Positions 56,115 to 62,349 of a stretch of DNA of 64,000 nt are shown piece after piece. The translations under genes and the position numbers were made by a program. The number at the start of each line of letters is the position of its first letter. Within the stretch, counting starts at the first letter, position 1. Origin of the DNA: Streptomyces sp. NBC_01754 (lineage in GTDB: Bacteria; Actinomycetota; Actinomycetes; Streptomycetales; Streptomycetaceae). The DNA lies in assembly GCF_035918015.1 (NCBI RefSeq), contig NZ_CP109132.1, positions 3,224,001-3,288,000 on the forward strand. The letters run 5' to 3'. The notes beneath the pieces were generated by a model. It did not search any database, was not told the DNA's origin, and worked only from the letters and a program-made list of their open reading frames with translations.

Positions 56115-57638
56115 TTACTCCAGGCCGCGTGCTTGCCTGCGTATGTGCAGAAGGTCGCGGAGCACGCGCACCGATGATGTGGGACACATGGCCAGCCGCA
56201 AGTCGAGAGCTGCCTCCCACTGCTCTGTCATCCCGGCCATCAGCCGCTTGCGCATGCCCGGGGTGACGTGGGCGTAGCGCGCAGATACGGAGCCGTCGAT
56301 GTGGCCCATGCGCTGGTCCATGAGGACCTTCTCGGTACCGAGGTCTTCCATCATCGTTCGATGCGTGTGGCGCAGGCCGTGGGGGGTGAGGCCCTTCGCG
56401 ATCGGGAGCCAGCAGGCGTCGGCCCGGTTGCCGGCGCCGCGTCCCCGTACGGGGACGCCCGGCCACGGCTCGCCGAGCAGAGGCACGGGGCGCGCCTCCT
56501 GCGGGGCCTTCTTCGGGTACCAGCCTGACACCGCCGGGGTGAACAGCCAGGTCCCGAAGCCGTTTCTGCGCCAGTGCGCCGCATGTTCCGCCACAACTCC
56601 GCCACGCACGAACCCGAGGTCGCTGACGGCCCTCTCCACCCGCATTCGGGTGGCCTCGGCGACGCGATCAGGGTGGTTGAGGACGTTGGACACCGTTCCC
56701 GTGGAGACCTCGGCCCGGCGTGCGACGTCGACAAGTTTCGCGCCCTGGTGCCCTCCGGTACGAGCCGCGCCCTGGCCACGGAAGACGTAGGTCATGCCGT
56801 GGCAGGGGCAGGGCGTCGGCTTCGTGCGGGCGACGTGGTTGGCGACCAGGGCGGACAGCCAGTCCATCGAGTCGAGGGTGCGATAGCTGTCATCCTTGGG
56901 CGGGCAGCGCACCATCTCACCCGAGTCGAGCTCGTAGAGCTGCCACTCGACACGGACGGATCCGGCGCGAACGAACTCGGTCTCCAGGCCGACGACTTCG
57001 CCCCAGCGCATGCCGGTGTATCCCTTGAGCACCACGGCGACGAACTCGTCGTCGCGGCCGGACAGCAGGGCTGCCCGTTCGGCGGTGAGCAGGACGCCGA
57101 GCGGATCGGTGACGACCTTCTCCGGGCCTCTGTCACGAGAGCGGCCCGCGCGCTTGCCCCGCCCGCGTCGCCTGGTCGCCGGGTTCGACGTGATCAGACC
57201 TTCGTCGATCGCGTCCTCGAAGATCAGGTGGAACGTGGAGCGCCAGGTCTTCACGCTGGAGGCCGCGTACAGGGCCCTTTCCTTCTTCTCCCACCGGTCG
57301 ACGTCCGAGCGCAAGATGCCGGCGAGCGCATGGTCCTCGAAGTCGGGGAGGAGGTGCTCCTCGATGTGGCGCTTGTAGTTCTGCATGGTCGAGGCTGCCA
57401 GATCCTGGGCCTCGTACCAGCGACTCGCGTACTCGCCGAACGTCTCCTGCCCCAGGGCGGGGTCGCGCCAGTCGCCGCGTCGGTACTTGTTCTCGGCCTC
57501 GCTCGCCGAGCGTTGGGCCTCGCCCTTGGTGGCGAACTTGATCGTCTTGCCTTGCTCGTCGACGACCGTGAGGTGCTTGCCGGGAGCGGTCTTGTAGCGG
57601 GCACGCCAGTAGTTTCCGCGCTTCTCCGCGAAACCCAA
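56115..57638 (-). CDS. int: tyrosine integrase with an embedded LacI-type helix-turn-helix
   Basis: This 507-residue site-specific recombinase has an N-terminal arm-binding and SAM-like core-binding domain (about 1-165). The catalytic tetrad is Arg211 (TGMRWGE), His420 and Arg423 (HGLRH), His446 and Tyr455 (SARYAHV). Inserted in the catalytic domain, between a CPCHG motif and WRRNGFGTWLF, residues 300-347 read KLVDVARRAEVSTGTVSNVL and on to ATRMRVERAVSDLGFVRGG, which is a complete LacI-family DNA-binding headpiece. Integrase catalyses insertion at the tRNA; the internal HTH may add a DNA-contact surface or a regulator function. I recall similar proteins in Streptomyces mis-annotated as LacI regulators. 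Confidence 0.9.
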   Translation of the reverse strand: MGFAEKRGNYWRARYKTAPGKHLTVVDEQGKTIKFATKGEAQRSASEAENKYRRGDWRDPALGQETFGEYASRWYEAQDLAASTMQNYKRHIEEHLLPDFEDHALAGILRSDVDRWEKKERALYAASSVKTWRSTFHLIFEDAIDEGLITSNPATRRRGRGKRAGRSRDRGPEKVVTDPLGVLLTAERAALLSGRDDEFVAVVLKGYTGMRWGEVVGLETEFVRAGSVRVEWQLYELDSGEMVRCPPKDDSYRTLDSMDWLSALVANHVARTKPTPCPCHGMTYVFRGQGAARTGGHQGAKLVDVARRAEVSTGTVSNVLNHPDRVAEATRMRVERAVSDLGFVRGGVVAEHAAHWRRNGFGTWLFTPAVSGWYPKKAPQEARPVPLLGEPWPGVPVRGRGAGNRADACWLPIAKGLTPHGLRHTHRTMMEDLGTEKVLMDQRMGHIDGSVSARYAHVTPGMRKRLMAGMTEQWEAALDLRLAMCPTSSVRVLRDLLHIRRQARGLE

Positions 57639-59090: not shown

Positions 59091-59579
59091 ATGGCGCGGA
59101 TACGCACGATCAAGCCGGAAGCCTTCATCTCCGAGTCGCTCGCTGCGGTGAGCGTCCACGCCGAGCGGACCTTCTTCGGCCTCCTCACCCAGGCAGACGA
59201 CCACGGCCGTTTCCGGGACCAGGCTGCTGTCATCGCCGGCGCCCTGTGGTCCCTCCGCCCCGAACACGGCCCTCTGGAGGTCGAGGACGACCTCACACAG
59301 CTCGACGGCGCCGGTCTGGTCTGCCGGTACGAGGGTGACGACGGCAAGCGCTACCTGCACATCGTCACCTGGGCTCGTCACCAGAAGATCAACCGGCCGA
59401 GCGGCAGCCGCTGCCCGGCCTGCCCGCGCCATCAGGGAAGCCGATCTACCGAGCCGGCCTCGCCTGTTCACGGTGTCCTCCGTGAACAGGACGCGAGCCC
59501 TCACCGTGGAGGACCTGAGGGGTCCGGTGAATGCAGCGAACCATCCGTGAACCGGGAAGTTGCAGGTCAGTCCCCCTGA
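59091..59579 (+). pseudogene. replication-initiator-like gene, 5' part, cut by an IS110 element
   Basis: It starts ATG 59091 (MARIRTIKPEAFISESLAA). The first 110 residues are of the phage/AICE replication-protein type (RTFFGLLTQADDHGRFRD, LVCRYEGDDGKRYLHI, WARHQKINRPSGS). The frame runs to GGTCAG at 59565-59570 and then enters the IS, where a stop follows three codons later (59577-59579). The rest of the gene is at 61217-61654. Joining the two at GGTCAG restores a single frame of about 305 codons. As it stands the initiator is probably inactive, unless the 5' domain works alone. Confidence 0.8.
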
Positions 59580-59798
59580 TCCCTTCGGGTGCGCCTTGCC
59601 GGCGTGAAAACATGGCTGCGGCGCCTGCCCGCCGATGCCGGTAGCTCGTTGGGACGTTGAGCCCGTAGGTCAGTCTGGTGCCGGGGCCGCAGAGGGGCCA
59701 CGCACTGTTGCCATCGAGCACGCCGGTCAGATTCTCGCTCCCCCCGCGGCCCCCTGGGCAGGCGTCATCCCGTACGGATCGATACCAGGGAGTGGAGC
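59571..59798 (+). ncRNA. putative IS110 bridge RNA region
   Basis: IS110 elements encode a bridge RNA in the non-coding end whose two loops pair with target and donor DNA. Here the target left of the insertion is GCAGGTCAG (59562-59570); GTAGGTCAG occurs at 59665-59673 (one difference, allowing a G-U pair). The IS right end is CCGGTCAG (61209-61216), and CCGGTCAG occurs at 59723-59730, inside a 17-base loop closed by GAGC (59716-59719) and GCTC (59737-59740). The order (target-like first, donor-like second) is that reported for IS621-type bridge RNAs. A hairpin GCTC/GAGC at 59644-59662 precedes them. Right-hand guides were not clearly identified. Confidence 0.55.
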
Positions 59799-61139
59799 AT
59801 GGCGGACACCGACGACAGCGGTGGCACCGAGGAGATCGAGCAGGCCGAGGAGCTCGTGGCCCGTGTCGCGGCGATCGATATCGCCAAGGCGTCGGGCATG
59901 GTCTGCGTGCGGGTGCCGCACGAGGACCAGCCCGGCAAGCGCGTGCAGCGGGTCTTCAACACCGTCGCGACCAGCGGCGCGATCCTGGACCTGGCCGACC
60001 ACCTGATCTGCCAGGGCGTCACCCGAGTGGTGATGGAGGCCACGTCGACGTACTGGAAGCCCTACTTCTTTCTGCTGGAGTCGCGTGGTCTGGAGTGCTG
60101 GCTGGTCAACGCCCGTGACGTCAAGAACGTCCCGGGCCGGCCCAAGACCGACCGACTGGACGCGGTCTGGCTGGCCAAACTCACCGAACGCGGCATGCTC
60201 CGGCCCTCGTTCGTGCCCCCGAAACCGGTCCGTGAACTGCGCGATCTGACCCGGGCCCGGGCGGTCATGACGCACGAGCGCACCCGCCACAAGCAGCGCA
60301 CCGAGAAACTCCTCGAAGACGCCCAGATCAAGCTGTCCACCGTGATCGCCGACATCTTCGGCGTCTCCGGACGCGCGATGCTGGAGGCGCTGATCGCCGG
60401 TGAGCGCAGCCCCAAGGCCCTGGCGGACCTGGCCCACGGCACCATCAAGGCCAGCCACAGCACCCTGGCCGAGGCCCTGACCGGCCGGTTCGAAGAGCAC
60501 CACGCATTCATGTGCCGAATGCTGCTGGACACCGTCGACCACCTCACCGTGCAGATCGACAAGCTCACCGCCCGGATCACCCTGCGTCTGACCGGGCTGT
60601 CCACCACCGAGGACGACGAAGGCCCCGGGCAGGGCACCCTGATACCGATCACCGACACCGAGCGCCTCGACGAGATCCCCGGCATCGGCCCCGGCACCGC
60701 GCAGGTCATCCTCGCCGAGGTCGGCCTGGACATGACGGTGTTCCCCACCGCCGGCCATCTCGTGTCCTGGGCGAAACTCTCCCCACGCACCCTCCAGTCC
60801 GGAAACAAGAACACCTCCGGTCCCACCGGCAAGGGCAACCCCTGGCTCCGCGGCGCCCTCGGCGAAGCGGCGATCTCCGCCGCACGCACCGACACCTTCC
60901 TCGGCGCCCGCTACCGCCGCATCGTCAAACGCCGCGGCCATATGAAAGCCCTGGTCGCCGTCGCCCGCTCGATCCTGGTCTCCGTCTGGCACCTGATGGC
61001 CGACCCGACCGCCCGCTACCGCGACCTCGGCGCGGACTTCCACACCCGCAACCTCGACCCAGCCCGCAAGAGCCGCGACCTCGTCCGTCAACTCAAGGCC
61101 CTCGGCCACGACGTCACCCTCACCCCGGCAACCGCCTGA
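59799..61139 (+). CDS. IS110-family transposase (bridge-RNA-guided recombinase)
   Basis: This 446-residue protein starts at ATG 59799 with GGGAGTGG upstream. The N-terminal RuvC-like DEDD domain has Asp27 (AIDIAKASG), Glu80 (VMEATSTYW), Asp118 and Asp121 (KTDRLDAVWLA). The C-terminal domain has the helix-hairpin-helix IPGIGPGTAQVILAEVG and the SPRTLQSGNK segment whose Ser334 aligns with the catalytic serine of IS621. All key residues are present, so the enzyme should be functional. The ORF is unbroken, supporting recent insertion. Confidence 0.95.
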   Translation: MADTDDSGGTEEIEQAEELVARVAAIDIAKASGMVCVRVPHEDQPGKRVQRVFNTVATSGAILDLADHLICQGVTRVVMEATSTYWKPYFFLLESRGLECWLVNARDVKNVPGRPKTDRLDAVWLAKLTERGMLRPSFVPPKPVRELRDLTRARAVMTHERTRHKQRTEKLLEDAQIKLSTVIADIFGVSGRAMLEALIAGERSPKALADLAHGTIKASHSTLAEALTGRFEEHHAFMCRMLLDTVDHLTVQIDKLTARITLRLTGLSTTEDDEGPGQGTLIPITDTERLDEIPGIGPGTAQVILAEVGLDMTVFPTAGHLVSWAKLSPRTLQSGNKNTSGPTGKGNPWLRGALGEAAISAARTDTFLGARYRRIVKRRGHMKALVAVARSILVSVWHLMADPTARYRDLGADFHTRNLDPARKSRDLVRQLKALGHDVTLTPATA

Positions 61140-61216
61140 CAGCACTCGAAACTCTCAGCACACGCCACCGGGGGCTACTTCGCCATGCCCACCTGACCGT
61201 TGAGTTTTCCGGTCAG

Positions 61217-61654
61217 GGCATTTTCAGTGAGCCCTCACCACAACGCCGGGAGATGGCGGTGAGGAATCAGGGTCCGGATCTAGGACCTAGGATCCTGGAT
61301 CTAGGATCACCTCCGGTGGGGAGCGCAAGCGCCCCCGCGCCACCCGCCATCTCGGGCGCGATCTCGGCCAGGGACCTGGTCGGCGAGTACGTCGCATCCT
61401 GCGAGCACCGGCCGCCCAGCGACGTACTGGGTCGCCTCGGCAAGGTGGCCGGCAAACTGCTCGGCGAGGGCATCTCGGCCGAGCACATCCGCGCCGGGAT
61501 GAGCCGCATGCGGGCCAAGGGCCTGTCCGCGAACCTGCTGCCGAGCCTGGTCAACGAGGCCATGAACGCTCCTCAAGCAGCTGCTGCCCCGCACCGCGCG
61601 TGGACCAACCCGGCGTCCTCTGACGTCGAGGCGGCCTACGGAGGCCAGCTGTGA
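61217..61654 (+). pseudogene. replication-initiator-like gene, 3' part
   Basis: It continues in frame with the 5' part after removal of the IS: GQ then GIFSEPSPQRREMAVRNQG, a variable segment, and then a conserved C-terminal domain SARDLVGEYVASCEHRPPSD, LGEGISAEHIRAGMSRMRAKG, LPSLVNEAMNA. This helical region is typical of the C-termini of these replication proteins. The segment at 61274-61305 contains repeated CTAG-bearing units (GGATCTAGGA type). Its TGA overlaps the GTG of the loader gene, so the two were translationally coupled. Without the 5' part it has no clear start. Confidence 0.75.
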
Positions 61655-62349
61655 CCACAGCCACCACCAGCCGGGAGCCGCAGCGCATCAGCCCCCTGGC
61701 AGCCCGCCTCGACACGATCCTCGCCGACCGGGGCATCGACGCGACCGCCGCGCTCGCCGAGGCGCCTTCGGAGCGGGTGACCGCACTGGAACTGGCCGAG
61801 GCGCGCATCCCACCTCGCTACCGCGACGCCCTCGCTGGTCACGAGCAGGTTGCCGCCTGGGTTGACGAAGTGGCCCTCGCCGCACGGCCCGGCCCGAGCG
61901 GCACCCGGGGCATCGCGCTCGGACCGTCCCTGCTGATCGCCGGCCCCACCGGCACCGGCAAGACGCACCAGGCGTACGGCGCGGTGCGGTCGCTGCTGAC
62001 CGCCGGTGTGCGCCTGCGGTGGGAAGCCGCCACTACAGCCGACCTGTACGCCCGCCTGCGCCCACGCGCCGGCCACGACGCCGAGCGAGACCTCGCCACT
62101 CTCAGCACCTGCCCGCTGCTGATCCTGGACGACCTCGGCGCGGCCAAGCAGTCGGAGTGGACCGAGGAGATCACGTACCGGCTGATCAACCGCCGCTACA
62201 CCGACCTGCTCCCCACCCTCCTCACGACCAATCTGCCGACCGCCGCGCTGCGCGACGCCGTCGGCGACCGCGTCGCCTCCCGTCTCGCCGAGATGACCAC
62301 GACCGTCGTCCTCACCGGCGCAGACCGCAGACGCCGACCTCACGCCTGA
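61651..62349 (+). CDS. DnaC/IstB-like helicase loader ATPase
   Basis: This 232-residue AAA+ protein starts at GTG 61651, overlapping the preceding stop by four bases (GTGA). LIAGPTGTGKTHQAYGAV is Walker A, LLILDDLGAAK is Walker B, LLTTNLP is sensor 1 and DRVASRLAEM has the arginine finger region. The N-terminal about 75 residues are helical. It should load the replicative helicase at the element's origin. Expression may be reduced because the upstream gene is interrupted. Confidence 0.87.
   Translation: MTTATTSREPQRISPLAARLDTILADRGIDATAALAEAPSERVTALELAEARIPPRYRDALAGHEQVAAWVDEVALAARPGPSGTRGIALGPSLLIAGPTGTGKTHQAYGAVRSLLTAGVRLRWEAATTADLYARLRPRAGHDAERDLATLSTCPLLILDDLGAAKQSEWTEEITYRLINRRYTDLLPTLLTTNLPTAALRDAVGDRVASRLAEMTTTVVLTGADRRRRPHA

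Follow-up and report, generated by a model that had tools for sequence, protein, structure and literature searches.

A predicted bridge RNA in the left end of a Streptomyces IS110-family element, with target guides that appear in reversed order

The window analysed here is a stretch of 64,000 nucleotides from Streptomyces sp. NBC_01754, and it contains an insertion sequence (IS) in which the hexamer GGTCAG recurs. The motif is found at the left junction (59565), twice within the left non-coding end (59668 and 59725) and at the right end (61211), exactly where the sequence-only reading had placed it. There is no other plus-strand copy in 59564-61216, and the reverse complement occurs four times in the element (60246, 60477, 60588 and 61193). 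Judged by the frequency of the motif in the window, the 228-nt left end should contain 0.114 copies, and two or more would occur with a probability of about 0.006. The two internal copies lie in GTAGGTCAG (59665-59673) and CCGGTCAG (59723-59730), as had been read, and it had been proposed that they are the target- and donor-binding guides of a bridge RNA. The question raised by this locus is therefore whether these copies follow the DNA on either side of the element, as guides would, and how such an RNA would read its target.

The element begins with the base that follows the left core and closes with the core of its right end (59571..61216, plus strand). It encodes a DEDD recombinase of 446 aa (59799..61139, plus strand) that matches PF01548 (6.4e-25), PF02371 (2.3e-18) and NF033542 (7.7e-77). 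In an alignment, its residues D27, E80, D118, D121 and S334 fall on D11, E60, D102, D105 and S241 of IS621, and an SG motif is present at residues 334-335; the two domains together with this motif are those of an IS110-family recombinase. In pairwise comparison the protein is distant from both IS621 (4e-8) and IS4321 (1e-5); these two resemble one another more closely (5e-15). The right end of the element reads TTTTCCGGTCAG. Its terminal part, CCGGTCAG (61209..61216, plus strand), would form the left donor in the circular form and closes with the core AG at 61215-61216. A subterminal inverted repeat of 6 bp is made up of GAAAAC (59606..59611) and GTTTTC (61204..61209), both given on the plus strand, and the bases adjoining GAAAA/TTTTC agree in 43 of 78 cases compared with 30.7 by permutation (2/20000).

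Near copies of this IS are present in Streptomyces. A search of the element's own genome (G000) returned five full-length copies and one truncated copy. The full-length copies have identical first and last bases, which confirms the ends that had been assigned to the element. All six left flanks end in AGGTCAG, and the five right flanks that were read differ from one another. In total, 44 distinct full-length insertions with 80-100% identity were read in seven genomes, namely G000, Streptomyces sp. NBC_01549, NBC_01562, NBC_00057, SM1, G057 and G290. Only matches starting at element base 1 or 2 were taken into this set, as all listed full-length matches do. Several flanks were left out of the counts: L101, which occupies the site of L001; the left flanks of two second tandem copies and the right flanks of two first tandem copies; and four SM1 flanks that are cut by contig ends. 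The left flanks of L006 and L029 were added. On this basis, AGGTCAG was found in 41/41 left flanks of the near clade, preceded by C in 39 and by T in two. The two omitted second tandem copies, from the tandem pairs in G290 (L117, L118), adjoin a right end and carry CGGTCAG. An insertion into unrelated targets with an unchanged guide, which had been named as the observation that would overturn the proposal, did not occur in this clade, since the guide is nearly unchanged and the target is AGGTCAG throughout.

Which of the terminal copies belongs to the target can be read from uninterrupted relatives. Of the empty sites found, 11 homologues of the gene interrupted by L003 were examined. The site was AGGTCAG in eight of them, with the form GGC-AGGTCAG-CGGC, AGGTCGG in two and AGGCCGG in one. 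The right flank continues directly in the uninterrupted relatives, with 25-30 of 30 bases alike. It follows from this comparison that one GGTCAG is the target and the other the donor, and that the insertion took place without a target duplication. The left target in the window, GCAGGTCAG (59562..59570, plus strand), is accordingly target DNA rather than part of the IS, and ends in the core dinucleotide AG (59569-59570). The core was read as AG, the stretch in which the left guide and the donor guide overlap, joined by the right guide in most elements. A fixed target, no duplication and a short core common to the target and the end are all found, as in the IS110 family.

Several observations were made at the insertion sites. 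In the own clade, position -7 of the left flank is A or T in 34/41 cases and there is also an excess at -6, both upstream of the guide-matched stretch. The L101 insertion (G057) is the same IS at the same site as L001; over 1500 bases on either side the flanks show 96.1% and 94.3% identity, and the IS itself 92.1%. In the window, the IS is located at the 3′ portion of an ORF (59091-59579, plus strand) that has no Pfam match. A 507-aa ORF at 56115-57638 (minus strand) has phage-integrase domains with a LacI-type helix-turn-helix (PF00356, 6e-14, residues 302-344) inside the integrase. The downstream ORF at 61651-62349 (plus strand) codes for an IstB/DnaC-like ATPase (PF01695, 6e-12), which together with the integrase suggests an integrative element.

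The guides were followed in a wider family. A covariance model (R1) was built from an alignment of 27 left ends, and 100 matches to it were aligned. The model finds the RNA in 25/394 genomes of the class, 42/295 of the genus and 33/249 of the family, each count including the own genome. The predicted left target guide, UAGGUCAG (59666..59673, plus strand), has the same sense as the top strand of the target and ends at the core. Among the 94 matches with a readable left flank, it agrees with the left target in at least seven of eight bases in 48 elements compared with 4.7 expected; none of 20,000 permutations reached the observed mean, the offset being free for observed and permuted pairs alike. 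In their best copy, 28 of the 56 distinct left guides match in at least seven of eight bases. This test replaced an earlier one (132/162), in which the targets had been picked by the guide itself, so that the null now has equal freedom. The predicted left donor guide, CCGGUCAG (59723..59730, plus strand), is equal to the right end of the element. Right ends in the family were sought as a match preceded by four bases with three or more T, and the donor guide agrees with them in at least seven of eight bases in 45 of 90 elements compared with 8.7 expected (0/5000 permutations).

The pairs themselves are varied. Left guide and left target read CACAAGAG and CACAAGAG in L129, TCGTCTAG and TCGTCTAG in L243, CGACACAG and TGACACAG in L032, and ACATTGAG and TCATTGAG in L252. 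Donor guide and right end are both CGGATTAG in L243, CGTTACAG in L189, CGTATTAG in L268 and CCATTCAG in L055, and differ by one base in L128, L322 and L324. For the left guide, 46 of the 94 elements fall below seven of eight, including several subfamilies whose left boundary was not located. L121 and L330 carry the left guide of the window element without AGGTCAG at the left end. When all RNA columns were scanned against the flanks in 38 elements, the strongest diagonals were at 59665-59673 for the left target, at 59721-59730 for the right end and, in the antisense direction, at 59641-59647 for the right target. The same scan did not yield a right donor guide. A weak diagonal at 59614-59620 and a look-alike noticed by eye 5′ of TGTTGC in one subfamily were considered for this role, and neither was accepted.

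The covariation that had been suggested as a check was thus carried out in a broad family of actinobacterial elements, with 56 distinct first guides and 34 distinct second guides: well above chance, the first internal copy tracks the left target and the second the right end. Since the internal copies follow these two sequences and no target is duplicated, the proposal of a bridge RNA is strongly supported. The comparison establishes both left guides as predicted features, and a non-coding RNA with target and donor guides, as in the IS110 family, is found by covariation, in this case without a right donor guide.

A few elements depart from the rule or were noted in passing. L017 has a changed left guide, TAGGTCCG, yet a normal AGGTCAG site, which suggests that the guide was changed after the insertion or that the element was moved by the RNA of another copy. 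L133 and L134 are plasmid segments of about 100 bases in which the portion of the RNA that carries the guides recurs at 88-90% identity and the 5′ portion has diverged; L133 retains the guide and L134 has an altered one. In G701, an IS110 relative (L333, L338, L339) with the left guide TCGTTCAG adjoins the apparent right end of another IS110. Its flank is CCATTTTCCGTTCAG, or GGATTTTCCTATCAG in L339, and this element seems to aim at IS ends.

The guides are embedded in a conserved fold of the predicted RNA (59621..59765, plus strand), which was obtained by RNAalifold with RIBOSUM on the 27 relatives and is supported by R1. An outer stem (59621-59631/59755-59765) encloses both modules, and five of its 11 pairs show changes on both sides. 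Inside it, the consensus has a target module stem (59636-59641/59675-59680), a hairpin UGGG...CCCG (59650..59665; helix 4, with changes on both sides in three of five pairs) and a donor module (59683-59697 with 59741-59753), all on the plus strand. In the consensus fold 91.8% of the cells are paired, compared with 36-52% when the partners are slid. Cells with changes on both sides number 67 compared with 22 in shuffles (0/500), and such pairs number 14 compared with 9.7 (11/500); these counts lean towards the structure, as it was derived from the same alignment. Further pair types were not in excess over the shuffles (300/500), and folding of single sequences was no better than that of shuffles (z +1.2 and +1.8). 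Rfam gave no match except one far below its gathering score, which was taken as chance. By comparison among the relatives the predicted fold is nonetheless established.

One part of the structure proposed from the sequence did not survive. GAGC and GCTC had been described as a closing stem, with GAGC at 59717-59720. These four positions read AGCA, so that GAGC is at 59716-59719; the partner GCTC is at 59737-59740. The complementarity does exist in the window element. In the 27 relatives GAGCAC is nearly invariant and the partner is variable, and the stem is not used by the consensus fold.

The sequence-only reading, which had picked out the left target guide, missed a further predicted target guide on its 5′ side. 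The segment at 59641-59647 varies between elements, lies 5′ of the hairpin and is complementary to the top strand of the target to the right of the core. In the window element the predicted right target guide is GUAGCUC (59641..59647, plus strand), assigned by homology to the relatives. In L128 the right target and the complement of the guide are both CATCAAG; further matches are CTACA (L129), GCACT (L031), ACTCC (L254 and L256), TTTCC (L257) and GCGAC (L251). The discovery set consisted of 50 distinct elements out of the 100 aligned, with the right end found by the rule of at least three T in the preceding four bases; the column scan described above used 38 of these. In 37 distinct segments of this set, 115 matches were observed compared with 73.1 (sd 5.2) by permutation (0/20000). 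Of the 50 distinct pairs, 18 reach four of five bases and eight score 1. Neighbouring registers are slightly above chance (23/5000 for anchor 3, 24/5000 for anchor 5 and 75/5000 for anchor 1).

As the two registers for the right guide had been chosen after seeing the discovery set, the rule was fixed and then applied to new elements. The held-out set comprised the 30 of 47 elements with a right end, in 19 distinct segments, and included L272-L277, previously unanalysed elements from the genus search. The right target was predicted with 64 matches compared with 36.5 (sd 4.1) in the 19 segments (0/20000), and with 50 compared with 27.5 in the 15 segments that had not been seen before (0/20000). 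In G701, a single element is inserted at seven different sites (L340-L346): all left flanks have GGTTCAG and all right flanks GCG (7/7), and the guides CGGTTCAG and the complement GCGAA read as the flanks do, the first three right bases alone being fixed. In the family at large, comparison of the sequences therefore establishes the predicted right target guide and its place.

With this placement, the order of the target guides appears to be the reverse of that in the well-studied IS110 examples. What is new here is a right target guide that precedes the left one on the 5′ side. An IS621 control behaved as expected: in locus L290, an IS621 copy found in E. coli, the left guide (1650) is 5′ of the right guide (1677). 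The order known from IS621 and ISEc21, with the left or bottom-strand guide 5′ of the right or top-strand guide, was not found in the window family. The order of the IS1111 type, with the top-strand guide 5′ of the bottom-strand guide, was found for the family, and for the window element itself by homology.

The reading that survives best beside this one is an ordinary bridge RNA of the IS621 type, in which the left target guide would be 5′ of the right one and the complementarity upstream of the hairpin would be accidental. It draws on the fact that IS621 and ISEc21 show such an order with the RNA upstream of the recombinase, as here, and on the small effect of the upstream guide in the own clade. 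However, a scan for complementarity to the right target detects nothing on the 3′ side of the left guide (65/300), where a right guide like that of IS621 would lie, and the maximum of the whole RNA is in the upstream segment, at 59643-59647 (0/300), which also predicts the held-out right targets; we regard the IS621-type arrangement as improbable. It is considerably less probable still that no RNA guide is involved, that the recombinase itself recognises GGTCAG and that the two internal copies are protein binding sites. As all four copies share GGTCAG within the own clade, this clade alone cannot separate recognition by protein from recognition by RNA. In the wider family, across 56 distinct first and 34 distinct second guides, the internal copies change in step with the flank and the right end, respectively, and they lie inside a covarying RNA fold, and IS621 and ISEc21 require RNA. 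That the matches merely reflect shared descent of the elements with their insertion sites has hardly any chance of being right: the permutations take no account of relatedness, and some insertions occupy a common site, as L001 and L101 do, but the multi-copy sets, which address relatedness for the main claims, show the guide-predicted bases at unrelated sites within one genome, in 41/41 left flanks of the own clade and on both sides in 7/7 sites of G701.

We therefore return to the bridge RNA with an upstream right guide. It is very probable that the left end encodes a bridge (seek) RNA with a right target guide, a hairpin, a left target guide and, in addition, a left donor guide, and that the DEDD recombinase uses both the target and the donor guides. 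The RNA would be transcribed and bound by the recombinase. In the target module, read 5′ to 3′ as right target guide, hairpin and left target guide, the right target guide would pair with the top strand to the right of the core. In the donor module, CCGGUCAG would recognise the right end of the element itself. The recombinase would then exchange strands at AG between the target and a circular form of the element, without duplicating the target.

In the own clade, the right target guide looks worn and weak at best. Its right flanks show 64 matches to the expected GAGCT compared with about 52 in 39 sites, and the next register also gives 64, a weak and register-unspecific preference. The core-facing bases 59648-59649 are GU, and G at 59648 cannot pair with the core G; this position is C in many relatives (…CTTG) and U in the L084 type. 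The right guide may still act in the window element itself, despite this wear. The right flank is nearly free, except that the first base to the right of the core is T in 0/39 (nominal 4e-4, noticed after looking at 16 positions). A rule barring T at this base, by which the RNA gene and the donor junction would be protected, was considered and dropped as a general rule, since L084, L169, L257 and L348 have T. With a worn right guide, the site would be chosen by about eight left bases and by "not T" at +1. On the left side, the guide of the own clade has U where 39/41 targets have C, giving a U-G wobble; in the SM1 relatives this guide base is C.

If the arrangement holds more widely, the consequences would reach beyond this element. 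We lean towards the view that the target loop is circularly permuted, with the right guide first, then the hairpin and then the left guide, in the left-end RNA of the actinobacterial IS110 subgroup with long recombinases, of which the founding IS110 may be a member. In that case, guide order and RNA position would be separate traits. The "IS110 order" in the literature, which was derived from IS621 and ISEc21, would then not apply to IS110 proper, whose way of reading its target would be closer to that of IS1111. The relationship between IS110 and IS1111 is touched because RNA order and position come apart in the window family. The experimental rules for bridge RNAs rest so far on few elements. 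From the actinobacterial family, with its core AG, reversed target loop, single outer stem and naturally occurring multi-copy sets of targets, an independent body of rules can be drawn, and the importance of guide order becomes testable. A natural relaxation of specificity would be visible in the own clade, where the right guide looks worn and the right flanks are nearly free.

The closest known systems are compared here from portions of the text of PMC11208160, PMC11208158, PMC11187229 and PMC12045711. Literature searches, leaving aside subscription papers and preprints, returned no publication title on a reversed guide order; Fig. 6d and Extended Data Fig. 10c of PMC11208160, with the guides of ISAar29 and five others, may already show it. 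According to these text portions, the bridge RNA of IS621, from the IS110 group, resembles the predicted RNA in lying in the left end, in having target and donor guides and in including the core dinucleotide in the pairings; a wobble in the left guide is tolerated, the target is not duplicated and the DEDD residues and S are shared (PMC11208160, PMC11208158). The differences are the core, which is AG in the window element and CT in IS621, and the right target guide, which is 5′ of the left one in the window family and 3′ in IS621 (PMC11208160, PMC11208158). Unlike IS621 as described there, the window family has one outer stem around both modules. The recombinase has 446 aa compared with 326 aa in the IS621 copy L290.

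The seekRNA of ISEc21, also of the IS110 type, is likewise encoded upstream of the recombinase gene and has guides for both target strands; its top-strand match is 3′ of the bottom-strand match, whereas that of the window family is 5′ (PMC11187229). Members of the IS1111 group, such as ISEc11, ISPa11 and ISKpn4, are reported in the same text to have the top-strand match 5′ of the bottom-strand match and a subterminal inverted repeat; the order is that of the window family, and the repeat is present here in a short form (PMC11187229). The position of the non-coding region marks IS110 versus IS1111, with exceptions such as ISMtsp17 (PMC11187229). The RNA of the IS1111 group is downstream of the recombinase gene (PMC11187229), whereas in the window a long non-coding region with the RNA (59621-59765) precedes the gene (59799-61139), as in the IS110 group. 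The text portions give subterminal repeats of 2-3 bp for IS110 and 7-17 bp for IS1111, compared with 6 bp here, and recombinases of 330-350 aa for IS1111, compared with 446 aa. Membership of IS1111 was therefore rejected: the guide order fits, but the RNA position, the repeat length and the recombinase length do not. The recombinase length and the actinobacterial hosts match those of Streptomyces IS110 and the subgroup around it, whose recombinases have 395-455 aa; judged by these two features, the element probably belongs to this subgroup, for which the cited text portions contain no guide map. As predicted from sequence comparison, the window family is one with an upstream RNA like that of IS110 and the guide order of IS1111.
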